A stretch of DNA of 64,000 bases from Massilia sp. Root335. Lineage in GTDB: Bacteria; Pseudomonadota; Gammaproteobacteria; Burkholderiales; Burkholderiaceae_D. The stretch spans positions 209,651 to 273,650 of the forward strand of contig NZ_LMCY01000048.1 of assembly GCF_001425685.1 (NCBI RefSeq), given 5' to 3'. This document shows, piece after piece, positions 705-25,253 of the stretch. Position 1 is the first letter of the stretch; each line of letters starts with the position of its first letter. A model generated the notes under the pieces. It ran no database searches and was not told the DNA's origin. It was given only the letters and a program-made list of their open reading frames with translations. Both the position numbers and the translations under genes were made by a program.

Positions 705-2111
705 ATGAAGCTGCACCATGAACTGATCGGCCTGTCCCTGCTGCTCGCCTTCGGCAGCGCCCACGCGCTTGACACCATCCGCGTTGCCATCGGCACCCAG
801 GACACGACCATCAACTGCGCCACCGGCGGCCTTCTGATCCGCGAGCTGCACCTGCTGGAAAAATACCTGCCGCACGACGGCAAGTACAAGGACGTCAAGT
901 ACGACATCGAATGGAAGAATTTCACGTCCGGCGCGCCGCTGACGAACGAGATGGTCGCGGGCAAGCTGGACATCGGATCGATGGCCGACTTCCCCGGCGC
1001 CTTCAACGGCGCCGCGCACGCCAAGGCGGGCAGGAAGAGCATCTTCGTCACCGTCCTGTCGGGCAGCACGCTCGGTTCCGGCAACGGCATCGTCGTGCCG
1101 AAGGGTTCGCCGGTGCAGTCGCTGGCGGAGCTGAAGGGCAGGACGATCTCGGTGCCGTTCGCGTCCACCGCCCACGGCATGCTGCTGCGCGCCGTGAGGG
1201 CGCAGGGCTGGGACCCGGACAAGGACGTGAACATCACGACGCAGGCGCCGGAAGTCGCCGGCTCCGCCCTGCAGGGCAACAAGGTCGACGCCCACGCCGA
1301 CTTCGTCCCGTTCGCCGACCTGTTCCCGCACCGCGGCTTCGCCCGCAAGATCTACGACGGTTCGCAGGCCCGTTCCCCGACGATGCACGGCAGCCTCGTC
1401 GAAGCCGACTACGCGAAAAAATATCCGGAGATCGTCGTGGCCTACCTGCGCGCCGCCATCGAAGCGGACCGCCTGATCGCGGCCGAACCGGAAAAATACA
1501 GTGAGCTGATCGCGAAGGTGACCGGCATCGACGCCGAAGTCGACTACCTGTTCCACGGCCCGGTAGGCCTGCAGACGCGCGACTTCACGTGGAAGCCGGA
1601 ATACCGCCAGGCCGTGAAAACCTCGATCGACACGCTGCGCCTGCTGAAGCGCACGGACTCGGACCTCGACGTCAACACCTTCATCGACGATACGTTCATT
1701 CGCACGGCCTTCAGGCAGGCCGGCCTGGACTACGACAGGCAATTGAAGAACTACGACAAGCTGCCGTTGAAGGCGCGGGACGCGGTGACCGGCAAACCGA
1801 TCACGGACTTCCGTCACCTCACGCAGATCTGGGTGCGGGGCGAGCCGCTCGTGCGCCACTACGCGAGCGCGACGACCGCGATCGCCGCGCTGCGCCAGCT
1901 GGAACAGGCGGGCAGGAAGGTGCGCACCGTGTACGCCCACGATCAGGGCTCGGGCCTCAAGCTGCTGGCGGGCGACGCGTGGTTCGTCGTCGCCGCCGAC
2001 GGCAAGGACGTCAGCGCGTTCCTGCTGAAAGCCGATGCGCAGGCCCAGGCGGCCAAGGTCAAGGGCAAGGTGGTCGATTTCGATACGCTCAAGAGCGGAA
2101 AGGCGATGTAA
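705..2111 (+). CDS. ABC transporter substrate-binding protein (NitT/TauT type) with NosL-like C-terminal extension
   Basis: A 468-residue periplasmic protein with a cleavable signal peptide (cleavage expected after SAHA, residue 21). Residues about 22-340 follow the pattern of nitrate/sulfonate/taurine-type binding proteins (NMT1/SsuA-like), including the PKGSPVQSLAELKGRTI segment. It is about 130 residues longer than usual. The extra C-terminal part (from about residue 355) has the pattern of NosL-type domains: TGKPITDF near its start, a YAHDQGSG stretch, then AWFVVAAD, and a final segment ending VVDFDTL. It is followed by its own permease and ATPase genes. The ligand is unknown; organosulfur compounds are a guess from the neighbouring AprAB-like genes. 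Confidence 0.8.
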   Translation: MKLHHELIGLSLLLAFGSAHALDTIRVAIGTQDTTINCATGGLLIRELHLLEKYLPHDGKYKDVKYDIEWKNFTSGAPLTNEMVAGKLDIGSMADFPGAFNGAAHAKAGRKSIFVTVLSGSTLGSGNGIVVPKGSPVQSLAELKGRTISVPFASTAHGMLLRAVRAQGWDPDKDVNITTQAPEVAGSALQGNKVDAHADFVPFADLFPHRGFARKIYDGSQARSPTMHGSLVEADYAKKYPEIVVAYLRAAIEADRLIAAEPEKYSELIAKVTGIDAEVDYLFHGPVGLQTRDFTWKPEYRQAVKTSIDTLRLLKRTDSDLDVNTFIDDTFIRTAFRQAGLDYDRQLKNYDKLPLKARDAVTGKPITDFRHLTQIWVRGEPLVRHYASATTAIAALRQLEQAGRKVRTVYAHDQGSGLKLLAGDAWFVVAADGKDVSAFLLKADAQAQAAKVKGKVVDFDTLKSGKAM

Positions 2112-6087: not shown

Positions 6088-6993
6088 TCAAACGCCGTCC
6101 GTGCCCACCGTCGGGGCAAAGCGGGCAGCCAGGAAATCGATCAGCAGGCGCAGCTTCTTCGACATGTGGCGCTTGCTGAGGTAGAGGGCGTGGATGTCCA
6201 GCGCGGCGCCGGCGAAGTCCTCCAGCACGGGCACGAGGTCGCCGGCCGCGACCGACGGTGCGAGCGCGAACGCCGGACCGAACACGATGCCCGCGCCCGC
6301 GCGCGCCGCCTGGCATGCCAGCGCCATCGAATTCGTCCGCAGCGGGCCGTCGACCTTGACCGTCATCCGGCCGTCGCCGGCCTCGTACCACCACTCGCCC
6401 GGCGTCGTCACGCCGCTCAGGTACAGGCAACGGTGGCCCGCCAGTTCGGACGGATGCGCGGGCGTGCCGTGGCGCGCGAGGTAGGCCGGCGCCGCGCACG
6501 TGATCATGCGGCTGGTGCCGAGCCGGCGCGCGACGAGCGCGGAATCCGGCAGGCGGCCGATGCGCAGCGCCAGGTCGAAGCCTTCGTCGATGAGGTCCGA
6601 GAAGCGGTCCGTCAGCTCGACGTCCAGCACGATGTCGGGATAGCGCGCGAGGAAGGCCGCGAGCGCGGGCGCCAGGTGCTGCTCGCCGAACGTCACGGGC
6701 GCCGTCAGGCGCAGCAGGCCGCGCGGCACGGCCTGCAACTGCATCGCCTCGCGGTTGGCTTCCTCGATGTCGGCGAGGATCTGCACGCAGCGCCGGAAGT
6801 AATTGTCGCCGGCCTCCGTCAGCGTCAGGCGGCGCGTGGTGAGGGTCAGCAGGCGCACGCCCAGGCTCTGCTCCAGGCCGCGCAGGTGCTTGCTCACCAT
6901 CGCGTGCGACAGCCCGAAGTGGCGCGCCGCGGCCGCCAGGCTGCCGCCCTCGACGCTCTTCACGAACACCGCCATGCTCGTCACCCGGTCCAT
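6088..6993 (-). CDS. LysR family transcriptional regulator
   Basis: A 301-residue LysR-type regulator. Residues 1-60 form the winged helix-turn-helix (MDRVTSMAVFVKSVEGGSL, then the recognition part SHAMVSKHLRGLE), followed by a periplasmic-binding-protein-like effector domain. The start VTSMAVFVKVVE-like is typical of the subgroup that controls small oxidoreductases and hydrolases. It is transcribed away from the alpha/beta hydrolase gene with about 105 bases between the start codons, the classic LysR arrangement, so that hydrolase gene is the likely target. The effector is unknown. Confidence 0.92.
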   Translation of the reverse strand: MDRVTSMAVFVKSVEGGSLAAAARHFGLSHAMVSKHLRGLEQSLGVRLLTLTTRRLTLTEAGDNYFRRCVQILADIEEANREAMQLQAVPRGLLRLTAPVTFGEQHLAPALAAFLARYPDIVLDVELTDRFSDLIDEGFDLALRIGRLPDSALVARRLGTSRMITCAAPAYLARHGTPAHPSELAGHRCLYLSGVTTPGEWWYEAGDGRMTVKVDGPLRTNSMALACQAARAGAGIVFGPAFALAPSVAAGDLVPVLEDFAGAALDIHALYLSKRHMSKKLRLLIDFLAARFAPTVGTDGV

Positions 6994-7098
6994 GCGATCT
7001 CCTACCTAAAGTCGTAAATGATGCCACGAAATACGGGATTATCGAACGAACGGATGGAAGTTACAGTCGTCGCCGTACCCCATCACCCAGGAACGGCA

Positions 7099-7884
7099 AT
7101 GAAGATCAAGACCAATGGCATCGAACTCGACGTAACGATCTCCGGCAGCGGCGCGGTCACGCTCCTCTACCTGCACTACTGGGGCGGCGCGGCGCGCACG
7201 TGGCAACCCGTGATCCGCGCCCTGCCCGACGGTTACCGGCACGTGGCCGTCGACCTGCGCGGCTGGGGCGGCTCGAGCCGGCCCGACGCGGGCTACGCGC
7301 TGGCCGACATGGCGGCCGACGTGCGCGGCGTCGCCGAGGCGCTGGCGCTCGACCGCCACGTCCTCGTCGGCCACTCGATGGGCGGCAAGCTCGCGCAATA
7401 TCTCGCGGCGGACCGCCCGGCCGGGTTGCGCGGCCTCGTCCTCGTGGCGCCGTCGCCGCCGCTGCCGCTGCCGCTCGACGCGCGGCAGCGCGACGCCATC
7501 GCCCACGCCTACGACGACGCGGCCGCCGTCGGCGCCACGCTCGACCACGTGCTGAGCGCAGGCCCGCTGCCGCCCGCGCTGCGCAACCAGGTCGTCGAGG
7601 ACAGCCTGCGCGGCGCGCACGCCGCGAAACGGGCCTGGCCGCATGGCGCGATGGCGCACGACATCACGGAACGGGCGCGCAGGATCGCCGTGCCGGTGAC
7701 GGTCGTCTCCGGCGAACTGGATCGCGTCGACCCGCCGGCGGCGCTGCTCACGCACCTGCTCCCGTTCATCCCGCACGCCGTGCTGGAGACAGTGCCGGCA
7801 CGCGGCCACCTGCTGCCGCTGGAGGCGCCGGACGCGGTCGCGCATGCGATCCGGCGTTGCGCGGCCGACGTGTCACCGGGCTGA
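7099..7884 (+). CDS. Alpha/beta hydrolase
   Basis: A 261-residue alpha/beta-hydrolase-fold enzyme. The nucleophile elbow GHSMGG places Ser at residue 93; the oxyanion-hole stretch HYWGG lies near residues 26-30; the acid is in SGELDRVDP and the final His in ARGHLLPLE. The ATG at 7099 follows an aggaa site, and the frame is open upstream without one. No signal peptide, so cytoplasmic. It is divergent from the LysR gene and likely controlled by it. The substrate cannot be told; relatives include esterases, haloperoxidase-like enzymes and lactonases. Confidence 0.9.
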   Translation: MKIKTNGIELDVTISGSGAVTLLYLHYWGGAARTWQPVIRALPDGYRHVAVDLRGWGGSSRPDAGYALADMAADVRGVAEALALDRHVLVGHSMGGKLAQYLAADRPAGLRGLVLVAPSPPLPLPLDARQRDAIAHAYDDAAAVGATLDHVLSAGPLPPALRNQVVEDSLRGAHAAKRAWPHGAMAHDITERARRIAVPVTVVSGELDRVDPPAALLTHLLPFIPHAVLETVPARGHLLPLEAPDAVAHAIRRCAADVSPG

Positions 7885-7954
7885 GACGGCGTTTGCCATT
7901 CCGAAAAAACACGCGTACACTCCGTCCCGTCGCTCCGGCCATCCGGGGCGACAC

Positions 7955-10164
<2,210 letters not shown>

Positions 10165-18068: not shown

Positions 18069-21000
18069 CTAGCCGTTGACGCACGTCCCGGCCGACGCAT
18101 CCATCGCACCCACGGTTCCCGTCCCGACGCGCCGGAGGAAGACGTCGGGACGGATCCTCGGCAGCAGCGCCGGGGATGCGTCGGCAAAGTGGGGCAAGCC
18201 GCCCCACAGCCGCGCATCGCCGATGAGGAAAAAGCGGTGCTGCGCCCGCGTGAGGGCCACGTTGAACAGGTTCGGCTTGCCGGCCGCCCACACGGCCGCG
18301 CCACGCGTCGCGGCGTCGCATCCCAGCACCATCCAGACCATGCTTTCTTCCTTGCCCTGGAAGGTGTGGACCGTGCCGATGCGGGTCCGGCACCACTCCC
18401 GCAGCACGCGCGGCGACGGCTGGCTGCCGGCCGGCCAGGCGGCGCCGTTCACCAGCCTGCGGGCCAGTGCCTCCTTGATGCGCCGGAAGGGCGAAATCAC
18501 GTACAGGGCCGGCAGCTCGCCCGTGCGCAGGGTGAGCTGCACGATGGCCCTGCATACGAGCTCGATCTGCTCCGGCACCGCCTGTTTGTCCTGCGCCGCG
18601 CCGCCGACGTCGACCCACGCGCTGGGGCCGACGTCGATGCTGCCGGACGGCGGCAGGCGCAACGCCGGGTCGTGCTGGTCGAAATAGATCATCTTGCCGC
18701 GATAGGCGATCTGGTTCGCGATCGTGAACATCGGATCGACGCAGCGCCGGTGCACCCGCAACGGGCTGCCGATCCACTGGTCCGTGCCGTCGACCTCGAT
18801 CCGCGCGCCCAGCGCATTCGCCTCGTCGGCCAGGTTCTGCACCGACGCCAGGTGCGGCTCGACCGGTTGTCCGGCGGGCAGCTGCGCGGTCCGGGCCAGC
18901 GCCTCGATCAGCTTGATGGGCACGGTGAACACGGGCTCGATCTGCAATGGATCTCCCACCACGACGGCGCGCCTGGCGCGCCACAGCGCGCCGACCGCCG
19001 CCTGCGGCACCGCCTGGCCCGCCTCGTCGATGAACAGCCAGCCGAGGCTGTCCGGGCCCAGGTCGCGGAACTGTGTCGCGATCGAGGCGAACGTACTGGA
19101 CACCACCGGCACGACCATGAACAGGCTTTGCCAGATGGCCTGCGCATGGTCGCGCTGCAGCAGCTTCTTGCCGCCCAGCAGGCGGGTGACGGCCACCAGG
19201 TTGCTGCCGAATCGGCCCCCGCTTTGCAGGACTTCCGCGAGCCAGGCCTCGTGCAGCGCCAGCGCCGCGACGAACAGCGCCGAGCGCAGCGCGTTGACCG
19301 TCTCGTCATGCCAGAGCCCCTGGATCTGCCAGCCGGGGTCCTCCAGCGCGGCCGCGCCGTCGGGCCCATTCATCTGCGGGAACTGCCCGGCCAGCGCGTC
19401 GCGTTCGCACTGGAGCGTCTCCCATTCCTGCGCCCGCTCGGCCAGCGCACGCTGCGCCCGGGCATCGCCGGCGACGGCGTCCTGCACACTGCGGCGACCG
19501 TCGGCGATCGCCGCCTCGACGGCGCGCCGGCGCGCCAGCCACTCGCGCTGCAGGCGCAGGTTGTCGGCCTGCTCGGCCTGGAACGCCTGCTCGCGTTCAC
19601 GCCGCAACCAGCGCAACCACCATGCGGGGCGCGTCCGTTCGACCAGGCGCAGCTCTTCACGCAGCGAATCCAGCTGGCGGCCGCACAAGGCCTGCTCGTC
19701 GTCGAGCTGCGCGAGCGCCGCCTGCGCGTCCGCGCGGGCCTGCGCCGCCCGCGCCCGCCGTTCGTCGGCCTCGGCGCAAAACACGGCACAGGTCCGGCCG
19801 CGCAGCCGCATGCAGACAGCGGCATAGCGATCGACCAGCGCAATGCGTTGCGCAACCGCCGCGTCGGCCGCCGCGAACGCCGCGCGCGCCTCGGCAAAAC
19901 CCGGCCCCGCATATTTTTCGCGCCACGTCCAGATCGATTGATGGACGTCGGGATCGAATCCCTTGACGGGCCATTCCGCCCGTTTCGCATCGGCCGCGAG
20001 GCGGAACGCGAAGTCGGTGCGATTGCGCTTGCGGCCGAGCGCACAGGCGACCAGTCCCCAGGGCGCGTCGTCCGCATCGAGCTTCGCATAATCGCCCTTG
20101 GCGGTGCGTGCGGCGATGTTGTGCGCCACCGTCCGCAGGTAGCCCGCCTTCGCGCCGCCCTGTGCGTCGCGCCACGGGGTCTTGCCGGTTTTCCCCAGCG
20201 CCTTCGATTTGGGCAAGTCGCGCGAGAGGTTCTCGACGGCCGCGTTGTTGGACGACGCGACCACCATTTCGAAGCCGGCGAGCTCCGGACGCAAGCGCGC
20301 GACGGCGCACCGCCCCTCGTTCTCGAAATCGACCTGCACGACGTCGGCAAATGCGTCGCCCGCGCGCGCGAAACCGGCCAGCACGCGGGCGCGCCGCGTG
20401 ATCAGTTCGGCGAACACGTCGCGCAGCAGCGTCGTCTTGCCGGTGCCGGGCGGCCCGTTCACGGAAAAAACGCCGCCGGATTCGAGCCGCTCGAACAGGC
20501 TGTTGATGGCGAACTGCTGCATCAAGCTCATCGCGTGCGCGGGTTCGCCCGGCCAGTGGGCGGACGGCAGCCGCGCCGGCGCGAGTGCCGCAAGAATCGC
20601 CTCCCTGCCGGGCGCCGTGTACAGGTCGAGGCGCTGCTCCTGAGGCAGCGGCGCGAGATAAGCGCGCAGTGCCGGGCTATGCGTGCCGCGTTCCAGCGAG
20701 GCGATGGCGCGCTCGATGTCCTTGGCAAAAAAACTGTTGAGGATCTCGACTTCGATCTCGTCCGCGCCGCCGGCGGCGTCGTCATCGTCATCGTCGTCCG
20801 TTGCGACGCGCGATCCGCCGTTGCGCTCCGCGGCGGCCTTGGCATTCGCCTGCCGCTTCTTCGGGTTCTCTTCGACACTGCGGGCCCGGACGACGATCGC
20901 CGCGACGCCGTCGCGTCCGGCGCCGGGCGCGAATCCCGTCCAGTCCTCGAAGATCGCCTGCAACGCCAACAACTCTTGCGCGGAAAGGGGAACGGGCAGC

Positions 21001-21590
21001 TGGACAGGCTCGCCCGTGCCCTCCACCTGCGCCCAGGCGGGCGGCCGCGCGCGGCGAAATTCCAGCAGCGACTCCTTGAGATCTTCGATCCCGTTTTGGA
21101 AGGCATCGAAATCCAGCGCATCCAGTCGACCGGCGCGCTGTATGCGTCCGAGCGCCCACGGCGCGGTGGACACGGAAACATCGTCCAGACCGGGTTCGCC
21201 GGCCGGCCCGATCCTGAGTTTCGCCATGCACGTCAAGCCCTCCAACGCAGCGCGCTCGTCCTGCTCGACGGTTTCGTCGGCCGTCAGCGACGCCTGCAGC
21301 ACCTGGCGCGTCACCTCGGCGAGGATCGACTTGTCGAACACGCCGAAATACACGTCGAAGCCGCTGAGTTCACGCCCCGGCGGCAGGCACGGCGTCCATA
21401 GCGGGCGTTCGGCACGGCGCAAGGCGGCCACGGACCAGGCCCGGACGGCCCATTCCGCGTCCGGCGCCTCCATGACCTGCTGTTCGAGGTCGAACGGGAT
21501 GAAAAACTCGACCTGGTGCCAGAAGCGCAGGATGCGGCCGGCGGGATGTTGCTGCTTGGGATCGTTCATATCGCTTGTTTCGGGGCTCAT
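18069..21590 (-). CDS. Large superfamily 1 helicase-type AAA protein
   Basis: An 1173-residue ATPase of the Upf1/Dna2-like SF1 group (AAA_11/AAA_12 type). Walker A GPPGTGKTTLL is near residue 378, Walker B with motif III (LFIDEAGQAVP then VVVGDPLQIEP) near 850-885, and the C-terminal motifs TVHTFQGKE and FNVALTRAQ near 1080-1130. A charged, probably coiled-coil stretch rich in Ala, Arg, Glu and Gln spans about residues 600-730 inside the helicase core, and about 300 residues of unknown fold precede Walker A. No nuclease motif seen. It stands alone beside transposon and integrase remnants, so an accessory or defence role is possible but unproven. Confidence 0.85.
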   Translation of the reverse strand: MSPETSDMNDPKQQHPAGRILRFWHQVEFFIPFDLEQQVMEAPDAEWAVRAWSVAALRRAERPLWTPCLPPGRELSGFDVYFGVFDKSILAEVTRQVLQASLTADETVEQDERAALEGLTCMAKLRIGPAGEPGLDDVSVSTAPWALGRIQRAGRLDALDFDAFQNGIEDLKESLLEFRRARPPAWAQVEGTGEPVQLPVPLSAQELLALQAIFEDWTGFAPGAGRDGVAAIVVRARSVEENPKKRQANAKAAAERNGGSRVATDDDDDDDAAGGADEIEVEILNSFFAKDIERAIASLERGTHSPALRAYLAPLPQEQRLDLYTAPGREAILAALAPARLPSAHWPGEPAHAMSLMQQFAINSLFERLESGGVFSVNGPPGTGKTTLLRDVFAELITRRARVLAGFARAGDAFADVVQVDFENEGRCAVARLRPELAGFEMVVASSNNAAVENLSRDLPKSKALGKTGKTPWRDAQGGAKAGYLRTVAHNIAARTAKGDYAKLDADDAPWGLVACALGRKRNRTDFAFRLAADAKRAEWPVKGFDPDVHQSIWTWREKYAGPGFAEARAAFAAADAAVAQRIALVDRYAAVCMRLRGRTCAVFCAEADERRARAAQARADAQAALAQLDDEQALCGRQLDSLREELRLVERTRPAWWLRWLRREREQAFQAEQADNLRLQREWLARRRAVEAAIADGRRSVQDAVAGDARAQRALAERAQEWETLQCERDALAGQFPQMNGPDGAAALEDPGWQIQGLWHDETVNALRSALFVAALALHEAWLAEVLQSGGRFGSNLVAVTRLLGGKKLLQRDHAQAIWQSLFMVVPVVSSTFASIATQFRDLGPDSLGWLFIDEAGQAVPQAAVGALWRARRAVVVGDPLQIEPVFTVPIKLIEALARTAQLPAGQPVEPHLASVQNLADEANALGARIEVDGTDQWIGSPLRVHRRCVDPMFTIANQIAYRGKMIYFDQHDPALRLPPSGSIDVGPSAWVDVGGAAQDKQAVPEQIELVCRAIVQLTLRTGELPALYVISPFRRIKEALARRLVNGAAWPAGSQPSPRVLREWCRTRIGTVHTFQGKEESMVWMVLGCDAATRGAAVWAAGKPNLFNVALTRAQHRFFLIGDARLWGGLPHFADASPALLPRIRPDVFLRRVGTGTVGAMDASAGTCVNG

Positions 21591-21749
21591 AACGCTTATG
21601 TTAATTCATCGCCCGAGTATGTAACGTTGTGCGAGCCTGCACAATGGCGTGGAACATAGACAAGTAGCAAATTCCTAGACACAAAGTGGCGCCGTCGCCG
21701 GCACCGGAGGGGTAATCCCCCCATTTTTAGCGCTCGCTAAAAGTCGAGG

Positions 21750-22220
21750 TCAGGCGGCAAGGGCAAGTCTTTGTTTTGGTGTGATGCCGCCGAGTGCCAT
21801 GTTGGGCCGGTCGTGATTGTAGGTCCACAGCCATCGAGTGGCAAATTCCTGGATTTCGTCGAGCGTTTCAAAGAGGTGGTGGGCCAGCCAATCGTAGCGC
21901 ACGGTCCTGTTGTAACGCTCGACGCAAGCGTTTTGCTGAGGCTGGCCTGGCAGAATGAAATCGATGCGGATGCCGCGTCTGGCGACCCAAGCCAATGTCA
22001 CTGCACGAATGTACTCTGGGCCGTTGTCGCAGCGGATCGCGTTTGGTTTGCCGCGCCATTCGATAATCCGGTCCAGTGATCTGATGACGCGGTCGGAGGG
22101 CGGCGAGAAATCGACGTCGATTCCCAGTCCTTCCCGATTGAAATCATCGAGGACATTGAACAGGCGGATGCTGCGCCCGTCGCCAAGGTGGTCATGCATG
22201 AAGTCCATCGACCAGCTCTA
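21750..22220 (-). pseudogene. IS3 family transposase (orfB) remnant, C-terminal half
   Basis: The reading frame keeps about 155 residues of an IS3-family DDE integrase core (IS2/IS51-like), beginning at WSMDFMHD and holding DNGPEY and the catalytic Glu region QNACVERYNRT. Just upstream of the Trp the frame meets a stop codon and unrelated AT-rich DNA, so orfA and the first half of orfB are gone. To the left, 21706-21742 holds ggaggggtaatcccccc and a palindrome ttttagcg-ct-cgctaaaa that may belong to the element end. It is an inactive insertion-sequence fragment at the left border of the AT-rich island. Confidence 0.85.
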
Positions 22221-22604
22221 TGGCAGCCTGCCCAGATAGGCCGATGCTCCAATAAGGTGTACATACTTGCGTCTTCGGGTATCAGGTGAGGAAGCTCAAC
22301 CTTACTATTGACAATGTATTTTATCAATAGCACAAAGCATCTACCCTAACAACATTAACCATTACTAAAATTCAAGTTAAATTTTTGTAATGTAATTTTT
22401 CCTATTTTGTTATAATTTGTGAGCATCTCAAGAAATAAATTAACTATATTAAAGCCTTCAAGAGAATTTACCAAGCTTCGATTTTCCGGTGATATCTTTT
22501 GATACTTATGCGGCCTTTATAATTTGTTTTGTTTATGCAGTGATCCAAAGCAAAATATGGTTATTGGGCCGAAATTGACTTCGTTATTTTTTGAGAAAAA
22601 TTAT
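22221..22604. other. AT-rich leader region of the bacteriocin island
   Basis: Base composition drops sharply here compared with the GC-rich surroundings. No reading frame of note is present. It holds promoter-like sequences: TTGACA at 22308-22313, an extended -10 at 22408-22416 and a second TATAAT at 22518-22523, all reading toward the small peptide gene. Confidence 0.6.
22408..22416 (+). promoter_or_regulatory. Extended -10 promoter element before the bacteriocin-like gene
   Basis: The sequence TG-T-TATAAT is a perfect extended -10 element with a consensus hexamer at 22411-22416. A TTGTAA at 22385 is a poor, over-spaced -35. Transcription would start near 22423 and give a leader of about 180 bases. 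A second TATAAT at 22518-22523 is an alternative. Confidence 0.45.
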
Positions 22605-22832
22605 ATGCAAACTTTGGCATTCGAAGAAATCGACATGGTATCTGGTGCAGGCATCGTTAGCTCGATGGCTAGTTGGGTTGTTGGCAACGGTACTGGCTAT
22701 GCTGTTGGTGGCTTCGTGACTGGCGTTATGGAAGGCATGGAAATGGGTGCGACCGCAGGTCCAATTGGTATCCTTTTAGGTGGTGCGGCTGGTGGTGCGG
22801 CCCAATACATATTCGCCCACTCTCTCCGTTAA
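22605..22832 (+). CDS. Class IIb bacteriocin-like (double-glycine leader) precursor peptide
   Basis: A 75-residue peptide. Residues 1-16 (MQTLAFEEIDMVSGAG) match the double-glycine-type leader of class II bacteriocins and microcins: a Leu at position 4, acidic-hydrophobic EEID, then VSGA. Cleavage is expected after Gly-Ala (residue 15) by a peptidase-containing ABC exporter. The remaining 60 residues are Gly/Ala-rich with repeated small-residue spacing (GTGYAVGGF, LLGGAAGGAA), like membrane-inserting lactobin A/cerein 7B-type peptides. The ATG at 22605 was chosen because it begins the leader; an in-frame upstream ATG adds 27 atypical residues. The ribosome site is weak (gaga). No exporter gene is in the window. 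Antibacterial activity is inferred. Confidence 0.7.
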   Translation: MQTLAFEEIDMVSGAGIVSSMASWVVGNGTGYAVGGFVTGVMEGMEMGATAGPIGILLGGAAGGAAQYIFAHSLR

Positions 22833-22871
22833 AATTGCCGAAAAGAGGGGGCGTTTTCGCCTCCTATTTAT

Positions 22872-23342
22872 ATGAAAATTTCTGAAGTTCGCGATGTGAG
22901 TCCGGTTTGGCAGCAGATTGTGCCAATTCAATCGATTTCGCAGTTGCTTTCATTTATTGCATTTTATGCACTGCTAATTGGCATCGTATACCTAATTACG
23001 AGGAACAGCACCGAACCTGAAGTTTTCGGAACTGTCTGTACCGGCGTCACACTTGGCGCTTTCCCAGCATTGTTTATTGCCCTGCCTCAAGAGTTTATTG
23101 CTGAGTTCAACTCTGAGTTCGCTGCAGCGTCAACGCTGAAAAAGATTGATGAGCTACTCAGATTTCGAGGGTATAAAAAAAAGGACGACCTGGGCATGAC
23201 AACTGCTTTATACATCTCTAAATTGCCTGCTGTTTTGTCTTGGAAAGAAAATAGTTTTTTTATACTTAGCTCTGGAAAATCAATTATTATTCGCGGCCCA
23301 AGAGGTAGCGTAAAATGGTTGCGGGATCGTTTGATCCGATAA
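22872..23342 (+). CDS. Two-helix membrane protein, candidate bacteriocin immunity protein
   Basis: A 156-residue protein I do not recognise. It has two hydrophobic segments, about residues 24-42 and 52-71, then a basic soluble tail with LKKIDELLRFRGY and a final IIIRGPRGSVKWLRDRL stretch. It starts 39 bases after the bacteriocin-like gene, same strand and same AT-rich composition, the usual place for a self-immunity gene. Between the two genes a hairpin (22846-22865, stem of eight pairs around a tttt loop) may reduce expression of the second gene or stabilise the first message. No clear ribosome site precedes the ATG apart from purines in that hairpin. Immunity role inferred from position and topology. 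Confidence 0.6.
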   Translation: MKISEVRDVSPVWQQIVPIQSISQLLSFIAFYALLIGIVYLITRNSTEPEVFGTVCTGVTLGAFPALFIALPQEFIAEFNSEFAAASTLKKIDELLRFRGYKKKDDLGMTTALYISKLPAVLSWKENSFFILSSGKSIIIRGPRGSVKWLRDRLIR

Positions 23343-23523
23343 AGCCGCGGAATGCGGCCCGGCCTGTATCAGCATGATCTAATCGTGTCACGCAATAATG
23401 AAGGCATTTTGGATTTACCATTAAAACAATAGAACATTATTGTTATTTTTAATGATTTTATTAATTATGTCCAGCCATCGACTCCTCAGGGCAGGCGCCT
23501 TATCTTCTAGTCGGAACTCTTCT

Positions 23524-23560
23524 TTGGGCGAATTACTTTAATTCGCCCAATTTCTTTTTT
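23524..23560 (+). terminator. Intrinsic terminator downstream of the bacteriocin-like pair
   Basis: A perfect 12-base stem, ttgggcgaatta and taattcgcccaa with a three-base loop, is followed by tttctttttt. It ends any transcript coming from the bacteriocin-like genes. A weaker hairpin with a short T-run lies at 23425-23450. The rest of the stretch from 23343 to 23649 is AT-rich and shows no gene. Confidence 0.8.
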
Positions 23561-23649
23561 TATAATGACTGTTAGTCGAGTGATCGTCGCAGCGCTACTG
23601 ATTATTTTTTTATATTTGGAACATATACCAAGCGCAGCACTGTCGAAGG

Positions 23650-23978
23650 TCAAATTGTCCCGATATCTGGCGCGCCGCGCTTTACCGTCCTGGTAAGAAT
23701 GTCGAGCACATGAGCCGAAGTGATCTGGCGAACAGGAAGCTTGCCGATGGAGGGCAATACGACGCGCTCCAGGCATGTCCAGCCGGCGTCTCTTTGTGAC
23801 CTCTTCCCAGTCCTTCATTGCGATGCTGGACCGGACTGATGCCTCCCTCACCAGCTTGCGCGCAACGTCACATTTCTCGCGTGCCTCGCCGAGAGTCACG
23901 CTACAGCCCCTTGTAGTCATTGAGACGATAGGTACCTTCTTTGGGCTTTGCAGCGCGGCACTGAGCATCGGTGAGCAT
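23650..23978 (-). pseudogene. Decayed P4-type tyrosine recombinase (integrase) gene
   Basis: Three pieces of one integrase lie in order on the minus strand. From the ATG at 23978 comes MLTDAQCRAAKPKEGTYRLN, the usual N-terminus, ending in a stop after DYKGL. In another frame follows VTLGEAREKCDVARKLV, then KDWEEVTKRRRLDM. One inserted C near 23783 then shifts the frame to LERVVLPSIGKLPVRQIT and HVLDILTRTVKRGAP, after which it stops. At least two internal deletions, a frameshift and loss of the whole catalytic domain make it dead. It marks an old integrated element whose cargo may include the bacteriocin-like genes. Confidence 0.85.
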
Positions 23979-24076
23979 GTAAGTGAGGTCGTTGTGGCAA
24001 CGCGCTCATCATATACACCGCCGTATGCACTTGCGCAGCACATGCGCAAGTTGTTGCGTGCGACAACACGAAACAA

Positions 24077-24101
24077 GAAAGCCCCGATCTACGGGGCTTT
24101 C
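24077..24101 (-). terminator. Terminator after ychF
   Basis: Perfect nine-base stem gaaagcccc and ggggctttc around a seven-base loop, with T-rich sequence (cttgttt) beyond it on the minus strand. It lies about 60 bases past the ychF stop, between that gene and the integrase remnant. Confidence 0.85.
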
Positions 24102-24161
24102 TTCAGAATTTTCAGGCAGGTTCTGCAAACTCCTGAAACCCCCTGAAATGGCTTGCTCGAC

Positions 24162-25253
24162 TCACACGTTGAACAGGAAGTTCAACACATCCCCATCCTT
24201 GACGATGTATTCCTTGCCTTCCGCGCGCATCTTGCCCGCTTCCTTGGCGCCGCCTTCGCCCTTGTAGGCGATGTAGTCATCGAAGGAAATGGTCTGGGCG
24301 CGGATGAAGCCGCGTTCGAAGTCCGTGTGGATCACGCCGGCCGCCTGCGGGGCGGTGGCGCCGATCGGGACGGTCCAGGCGCGCACTTCCTTCACGCCGG
24401 CCGTGAAGTAGGTCTGCAGGCCCAGCAGCTTGAACGCGGCGCGGATCAGGCGGTCCAGGCCCGGCTCTTCCATGCCCAGGTCGGCCAGGAATTCGAGCTT
24501 GTCGGCGTCGTCCAGGTTGGCGATTTCCGATTCGATGGCGGCGGAGATCGCGACGATCGGCGCGTTCTGCTTGTTGGCGAATTCCGTCAGCAGGTCCAGC
24601 AGCGGATTGTCCTTGAAGCCGCTTTCGGACACGTTGGCCACGAACATGGCCGGCTTGGCCGTGATCAGGCACAGCGGCTTGATCAGTTCCAGCTGGTCGG
24701 CGTCCAGGCCCAGCGTGCGCGCGGGCTGGCCTTCGTTCAGGTGCGGCAGCAGCTTTTCCAGGATCGCCACCAGCTTGATGGCGTCCTTGTCGCCGGCGCG
24801 CGCCTTCTTCTGCTCGCGGTGCAGGGCTTTCTCGGCGGTGCCCATGTCGGCCAGCGCCAGTTCGGTCTGGATGACTTCGATGTCGTCGATCGGGCTGACC
24901 TTGCCGGCCACGTGGATCACGTTCGGGTCTTCGAAGCAGCGCACGACGTTGACGATGGCGTCCGTCTCGCGGATGTGCGACAGGAACTGGTTGCCCAGGC
25001 CCTCGCCCTTCGACGCGCCGGCCACGAGGCCCGCGATGTCGACGAACTCGACGATCGCCTTGACGACGCGTTCCGGCTTGACGATGGTGGCCAGCTGGTC
25101 GATGCGCGGATCCGGCACCTCGACGACGCCGACGTTCGGCTCGATGGTGCAGAACGGATAGTTTTCAGCCGGGATGCCGGCCTTGGTCAGGGCATTGAAC
25201 AGGGTGGACTTGCCGACGTTGGGCAGGCCGACGATGCCGCATTTGAGACTCAT
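24162..25253 (-). CDS. ychF: Redox-regulated ATPase YchF
   Basis: A 363-residue Obg-related P-loop protein that hydrolyses ATP rather than GTP and associates with ribosomes. It has G1 GLPNVGKST (residues 9-17), G3 DIAGL, a YchF-type G4 region, a central helical domain and a C-terminal TGS domain (from about residue 280, ending [11 protein letters not shown]). Length and sequence are normal. In related genomes it follows pth; here several accessory genes lie between the two. Confidence 0.97.

Follow-up and report, generated by a model that had tools for sequence, protein, structure and literature searches.

A putative microcin-like toxin/immunity pair of an apparently new sequence family beside the remains of its exporter in Massilia sp. 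Root335

Background

Class II microcins, as described in PMC9746304, are produced by a set of parts comprising a precursor peptide, an immunity protein, an ABC exporter with a C39 peptidase domain (C39-ABC), an adaptor and TolC. Leaders ending in GG and leaders ending in GA are both accepted as double-glycine leaders, and the verified immunity proteins are reported to be mutually dissimilar and hard to find by homology (PMC9746304). In pneumococcus, blpAB has been reported to be intact in only 23.5% of genomes (PMC4860687).

The present study concerns a locus of this general kind in Massilia sp. Root335, contained in a stretch of 64,000 nucleotides (the window), to which all coordinates refer unless a contig or locus is named. 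An earlier note had read two adjacent genes of the window as a bacteriocin-like precursor and a candidate immunity gene. We consider it probable that the pair encodes the toxin and the immunity protein of a class II microcin-like cassette, which was acquired and has been stripped of its exporter. The literature search returned nothing on this precursor/immunity family by title or abstract opening. In Massilia the locus apparently holds a toxin/immunity pair of microcin-like type, known as a kind but belonging to a new sequence family.

Results

The precursor and the candidate immunity gene

The precursor gene (P0001, 22605..22832, forward strand), delimited by its reading frame and by the family alignment, encodes 75 residues, with a GA-ending leader up to residue 15 and a Gly/Ala-rich core of 60 residues, as the earlier note had described. 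The leader, MQTLAFEEIDMVSGA, is of the double-glycine type, and across 11 members of the precursor family E8, V12 and G14 are invariant and I9 and S13 nearly so. The core has a net charge of -1, unlike many bacteriocins, which are cationic, and this counts against the reading preferred here. Against Pfam, P0001 reached MccV at E=0.51, with 11.4 bits for a cut-off of 27, and no NCBIfam family was found at E<=1; among the 11 family members, Bacteriocin_IIc was matched in five (best 5.9e-4) and MccV in five (best 1.1e-3). The precursor profile gave two chance-level matches only against PDB sequences, neither gene product was matched in the plasmid search, and no Rfam family reached its gathering score over 21000-24500. 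In a neutral simulation considering stops only, with no indels, the probability of an intact frame by chance was 0.44 for the precursor and 0.11 for the immunity gene; the intact precursor frame is thus no evidence of selection.

After a spacing of 39 bases follows the candidate immunity gene (P0002, 22872..23342, forward strand), which encodes 156 residues with two predicted transmembrane helices (hydropathy peaks at ~16-46 and 53-77) and a C-terminal part that is probably soluble, in agreement with the two-helix membrane protein proposed previously. P0002 had no Pfam or NCBIfam match above cut-off and its family profile none among PDB sequences, and AlphaFold2, applied to P0002 aligned with one relative, gave a mean pLDDT of 36. 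Its position, size, helices and conserved pairing with the precursor would fit a small membrane immunity gene.

The transcription signals described in the earlier note stood in part. Promoter-like boxes are present, but a scan of both strands returned 6 sites where 3.6 +/- 1.8 were expected, the sole forward-strand site upstream of the precursor abuts its start codon, and a possible -10 box (TATAAT, 22518..22523, forward strand), read directly in the window and in the corresponding locus of Massilia sp. Root133, has no convincing -35 partner. The strong downstream terminator likewise exists as an inverted repeat at 23524-23550, nearly perfect and more so in the window than in Root133, but it falls within a remnant of hlyD (see below), and a second hairpin separates the two genes, between the precursor stop and the P0002 start (22846..22865, forward strand; repeat scan and folding). 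The 90 nt after the precursor had a negative folding z in 12 of 12 cassette loci, below -2 in six of them, with a mean of -2.46; the 90 nt preceding the precursor averaged -0.25 in the same 12 loci, with the open-frame boundary taken as the reference point in the frameshifted locus G304. This hairpin is plausibly an attenuator giving more toxin than immunity message, and the repeat at 23524-23550 may by now act as terminator for both genes.

An acquired cassette beside ychF

The two genes lie on an AT-rich island, as had been claimed, with 41% GC over 22300-23700 versus 66.5% in the window as a whole. Comparison by blastn with the locus of Massilia sp. Root133 (L040, genome G385; same genus as the window strain, Oxalobacteraceae per NCBI), the one relative returned by a search for related loci, delimited a common cassette at 22456..23671 (forward strand), with 84.6% identity over 22456-23370 and 84.4% over 23449-23671, where the homology ends; the rest of the 64-kb window had no further match at E<=1e-5 to the 12-kb Root133 stretch. 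The upstream neighbour of the cassette is a truncated transposase gene of the IS3 family (21750..22208, reverse strand), of which the 3' part with the rve domain is left (Pfam rve_3; NCBIfam transpos_IS3 at E=4.8e-39 over profile positions 221-367 of 369, below the full-length cut-off), and window positions 21711-22216 are 92% identical to contig C12:82500-83005 of the same genome.

From ~23668 onwards the window matches DNA found near ychF in genomes of the same genus (23701-23817 in G223, 83%; 23668-23816 in G326, 75%; 23669-23788 in G395, 73%), so that the cassette's right edge can be set at this position. This native flank, without assigned strand, occupies 23668..24160, its extent up to 24160 being inferred, and is followed by ychF itself (24162-25253, reverse strand), named by inspection, downstream of the cassette. 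Since the Root133 copy sits in a neighbourhood unlike that of the window, the cassette probably moves. The pair with its adjoining remnants is apparently acquired DNA.

Pairing of the two genes in related genomes

The Root133 cassette consists of two tandem precursors, a P0002 homologue and the start of hlyD, with 72% identity to the window for the precursor and 84-85% for the P0002 homologue. Root133 keeps both genes and 10 further loci carry divergent pairs, so neither gene is a chance ORF. A protein search over 294 genomes of the bacterial family found P0002 relatives in 28, the strain's own genome included. Outside the window these comprised 18 loci of normal size, at seven of which a double-glycine precursor adjoins, and 10 weak hits (L029, L031-L039; E ~1e-4 to 1e-3) located inside ORFs of ~690-730 aa, which were dropped as probably unrelated.

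A profile of the precursor (A1), built from 11 precursors, gave matches at E<=0.01 in 49 genomes out of 392 of the family; many of the weaker matches are segments of longer ORFs. Fifteen loci were strong (E<1e-10), and at 12 of them a P0002-type gene is the neighbour; the other three, on contig C44 of the strain's own genome and in G326 and G296, lack such a partner, which counts against the explanation we prefer. Five of the strong loci were not used to build the profile, and the partner is present in G374, G388 and G304 and absent from G326 and G296. The precursor is rare at class level: in a draw of 369 genomes the profile had matches at E<=1e-5 in two, one of which is the genome of the window strain itself. 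Judged by sequence, the pairing of the precursor with a P0002-type gene is real and conserved at 12 loci of the bacterial family. The earlier note had named conservation of the gene pair in other genomes as a check on its reading; this pairing, together with the exporter-linked relatives described below, supports a bacteriocin precursor followed by its immunity gene.

A subfamily of precursors with DRGD or DRDD-like residues at the start of the core was encountered in addition (L059 17258-17500; L138 7266-7487; L139 6946-7191; L141 7888-8154). The stretches examined around these genes contained no P0002-type neighbour, and another immunity gene is therefore expected for them.

Exporter genes in the relatives, in the window and elsewhere in the genome

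Intact genes for HlyD and a C39-ABC exporter adjoin the pair in six of the 12 loci (G166, G138, G244, G250, G374 and G388), and the order precursor, immunity candidate, hlyD, exporter is found in G166, G244, G250 and G388; the G388 exporter has a stop inside the full-length match, yet the frame for residues 9-733 is open. Exporter fragments are left at three loci, namely the window, Root133 and G304, and no such exporter was found in the examined stretch of G094, G111 and G011. In the window, the 5' end of hlyD, which encodes a membrane fusion protein, survives as a broken remnant in more than one frame (23449..23671, forward strand; tblastn pieces at 23470-23532, 23526-23624 and 23606-23671, and three-frame translation). 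Just past the P0002 stop, in another frame, stands a trace, KAAECGPACISMI, followed by a stop (23341..23379, forward strand; by eye in three-frame translation), which resembles the active-site start of the C39 peptidase domain. A longer C39 fragment occupies the same place in Root133 (L040 6458-6625) and corresponds to residues 40-94 of the exporter on contig C44 (E=2.5e-8; 3.6e-8 in a second search); the shared position of the fragments suggests that loss of part of the exporter probably preceded the divergence of the two cassettes. With the hlyD remnant and the C39 trace as the only vestiges of a C39-ABC exporter and membrane fusion protein encoded with the precursor, the window locus is, in the strict sense, a derelict member of the class II microcins. 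The earlier note had overlooked that the locus is what remains of a larger cassette with a decayed exporter.

Elsewhere in the genome, where that note had suggested looking for a C39-peptidase exporter, six C39 loci are found, four of them in ABC-exporter frames. One, on C44, encodes an intact exporter of the cassette type (733 aa; C39, ABC_membrane and ABC_tran domains), with 81% identity to its counterparts in the G166 and G388 cassettes; the next exporter of the strain's own genome, on C4 (704 aa), is 54% identical to it. The HlyD of the Root133 cassette is 52% identical to the HlyD proteins of C44 and G166 and 27-36% identical to five others. Contig C44 also carries, ~9.6 kb beyond the exporter, a related precursor whose leader, MQDLSFDEISMVCGA, resembles MQTLAFEEIDMVSGA. 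Production in trans is possible for the window strain. No cassette-type exporter was found in the genomes of Root133 (best ~31% identity) and G011, the latter having an ABC protein which matches outside the C39 part and one C39 frame of 363 aa; both are probably non-producers. Absence of both conservation and an exporter would have spoken against the precursor and immunity reading, and at the sequence level both are present.

Two further features of the C44 region (G000 C44:90000-109900, locus L059) deserve mention. An unrelated double-glycine precursor with a leader ending in VAGG and a hydrophobic ORF of 63 aa (937-1128 and 1201-1425, reverse strand) lie in divergent orientation to the genes for HlyD and the exporter and may form a further toxin/immunity pair close to this intact exporter, and an ORF of 596 aa directly 3' of the exporter (7679-9469), with no Pfam or NCBIfam match, may encode a peptide-tailoring protein.

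In its full form, as found in the relatives, the cassette would encode a precursor that is cut after its GA or GG leader and exported by the C39-peptidase ABC transporter together with the HlyD adaptor. The layout and family resemblance suggest that the freed Gly/Ala-rich core would presumably insert into the inner membrane of competitors, and that the two-helix membrane protein would protect the producer. The window cassette would have been acquired beside ychF; its own exporter has been lost, leaving the broken hlyD start and the C39 trace. The immunity gene is clearly still selected. The peptide would be a relic under drift, in a strain that is immune but no producer, or else a product exported in trans by the C44 exporter, with a diversifying core.

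Selection on the pair and the fate of the peptide

All selection estimates for the window derive from one genome pair, the window and Root133, and omega values were obtained with NG86 (YN00 gave 1.31 for the window precursor versus copy 1 of Root133 and 0.23 for the immunity gene). Omega was 0.18 for P0002 (bootstrap 0.10-0.31) and 0.73 for the precursor overall, the latter divided between a leader at 0.08 (15 codons, with 2 non-synonymous and 4 synonymous differences) and a core at 1.18 (bootstrap 0.54-3.1, with about 24 non-synonymous and 8 synonymous differences). The non-synonymous and synonymous counts of precursor and immunity gene differed in a Fisher test (p=0.007), and a codon-position comparison of the two genes gave p=0.15 and was not significant. 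For four further pairs of loci, in which synonymous sites are near saturation and one of which includes the broken G304 core, omega was 0.06-0.18 for the precursor and 0.08-0.21 for the immunity gene. The immunity gene is constrained as usual and the window-type core is not. An unconstrained core fits both loss of function and diversification; the constrained leader points to diversification and the lost exporter to loss, and a leader more conserved than the core argues against plain decay.

To the first of these outcomes, an immune non-producer or 'cheater' in which the peptide is dead in practice and immunity is kept as neighbours make related peptides, we would give slightly less than an even chance. 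The exporter of the window is lost, and G011 and Root133 carry the pair in genomes where no cassette-type exporter was found. The G011 precursor is interrupted by a stop at codon 2 and that of G304 by a frameshift past the leader, while the immunity gene is open in both; moreover, the omega of the window precursor is above that of the four other pairs and that of the immunity gene is unchanged. The immunity gene is open and, in the one genome pair, under purifying selection, as is looked for in an orphan immunity gene. Nevertheless, the window precursor and its leader are intact (at the chance probability given above for the frame), and the genome keeps a cassette-type exporter on C44 and a cassette-like one on C4. 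Furthermore, an open immunity gene was part of what led to the loci, by which broken immunity genes are under-sampled, and the pattern of immunity outliving the toxin is for this reason no more than suggestive.

It is tentative, and less probable, that the C44 exporter secretes the window peptide, whose core would be diversifying, with P0002 working as its immunity protein. The intact HlyD and C39-ABC exporter of cassette type on C44, the likeness of the leaders there and in the window, the stronger constraint on the leader than on the core and the intact precursor frame are all consistent with it. However, the interval of the core omega includes neutrality, two pairs in which both loci have intact exporters gave a precursor omega of 0.09 and 0.13, i.e. 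no general diversification, and the two precursor copies of Root133 differ from each other with an omega of 0.50, even though that genome has no such exporter.

A family shared with a resident membrane protein

The P0002-family profile matches 59 of 62 genomes of the genus at E<=0.001 (the weakest at 2.6e-4 over half of the profile), and the strain's own genome holds a core paralogue on C52 and a third, weaker match on C43. A tree of the family, into which only retrieved loci among the profile matches were entered, has 53 rows, of which 12 are linked to a precursor. One precursor-free clade gathers 33 rows, 28 of them from the genus, with support of 99/95, and the cassette-linked rows fall outside it, two attaching near it with weak support. 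The precursor link has to change 7 times over the tree, and well-supported branches impose at least 4 of these changes; together with the weakly placed cassette rows, they leave a single origin of the cassette type unproven, and several long branches render placements unsure. When the neighbourhoods of the own core copy and 14 other family loci were compared, 10 loci shared an ORF of 611 codons resembling a membrane protein, along with rho and thioredoxin genes (both by inspection), and the four without this neighbourhood lie outside the precursor-free clade. The 611-codon ORF beside the resident paralogue had no Pfam match and is ArnT-like by eye only. By their sequences, the cassette-linked genes are relatives of a resident membrane protein.

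The 41 of 53 rows without a precursor mean that the role of the family need not be immunity. The second gene might accordingly be a membrane housekeeping or signalling protein, as the resident paralogue may be, and the peptide a signal or an autolysis factor. The presence of the family in nearly all genomes of the genus, the large precursor-free clade with its shared neighbours and the Neisseria nap peptides, reported to be bacteriocin-like and yet to act in autolysis (PMC11798529), would favour this explanation; it is nonetheless improbable, as the cassette members are not part of that clade and, in the manner of immunity genes, accompany a precursor and an exporter. Equally improbable, in our estimate, is another reading, by which the immunity family would be a mobile, fast-evolving branch of the resident protein, protecting by mimicking or replacing it as the receptor or target of the peptide family, and the orphan copies would be immunity genes outliving their toxins. 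No precursor relic was found at E<=0.5 within <=4 kb of eight orphan immunity genes.

In G203 (L049), a P0002-type gene stands beside HlyD, a C39 exporter and a different, Cys-containing double-glycine-like peptide (~6678-6880 and 8127-8636), an arrangement which suggests that the family may serve more than one precursor type.

In G244 (L050), a second, different short precursor with a leader ending in VNGG lies upstream of the cassette (6971-7162), a possible two-peptide arrangement.

As the earlier note had remarked, the window has one member of the precursor family instead of the usual pair of a two-peptide system. A two-peptide class IIb bacteriocin of the lactobin A/cerein 7B kind with its partner lost, the assignment made there, is very improbable: the core has GxxxG-like repeats, and tandem or additional precursors occur in Root133 and G244, but no such NCBIfam or Pfam family was matched by P0001 (E<=1) or by the 11 members (E<=0.1), the Root133 copies are near-duplicates, one with the usual leader start lost or replaced, with no evident complementary pair, and the other eleven of the 12 cassettes have a single member of the precursor family. 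The library searched presumably contained a model of the lactobin A/cerein 7B type.

Discussion

We return to the reading of the window as an acquired, exporter-stripped cassette. Its points of interest are the new family, the resident paralogue of the immunity gene and the series of decay stages. One immunity-like family, found with one precursor family at 12 loci and having a resident paralogue, offers a handle on the origin of immunity and on the target of the peptide. The loci at different stages of decay, from intact to exporter lost and to toxin broken with immunity open, form a natural series, which can be used to test immunity outliving toxin production outside pneumococcus.

Among the described systems, the Neisseria nap island (PMC11798529) resembles the cassette in being AT-rich, acquired and betaproteobacterial and in encoding bacteriocin-like GG peptides together with an immunity-like gene. 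As that report describes them, the nap peptides differ in being cationic, in having no detected antimicrobial activity, in acting in autolysis and in their different export genes; their role as autolysis factors is a warning against assuming antibacterial activity of P0001. The mcbABCI locus of Moraxella catarrhalis (PMC2761928), with the nap island the nearest layout in the literature consulted, shares secretion genes, a double-glycine precursor and an immunity gene directly downstream of the precursor. It is set apart by its description, in which McbI has 74 aa and similar proteins are not reported, whereas P0002, of 156 aa, belongs to a two-helix family and has a resident paralogue. The pneumococcal blp loci with a broken blpA, termed 'cheaters' (PMC4517551), are similar in that the exporter is broken and immunity kept; they are described from a Gram-positive, with frameshift-causing repeats and deletions in blpA, whereas in the window most of the exporter genes are missing.

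In its parts the whole cassette is like the class II microcins, such as microcin V/colicin V (CvaC, Cvi, CvaA and CvaB). The cassette differs from them in having its own sequence family, in occurring outside Enterobacterales, in the score of P0001 below the MccV cut-off and in the lost exporter of the window. It shares with them the GG or GA leader, the small adjacent membrane immunity candidate and, in the intact relatives of the window locus, the HlyD adaptor and the C39-ABC exporter.
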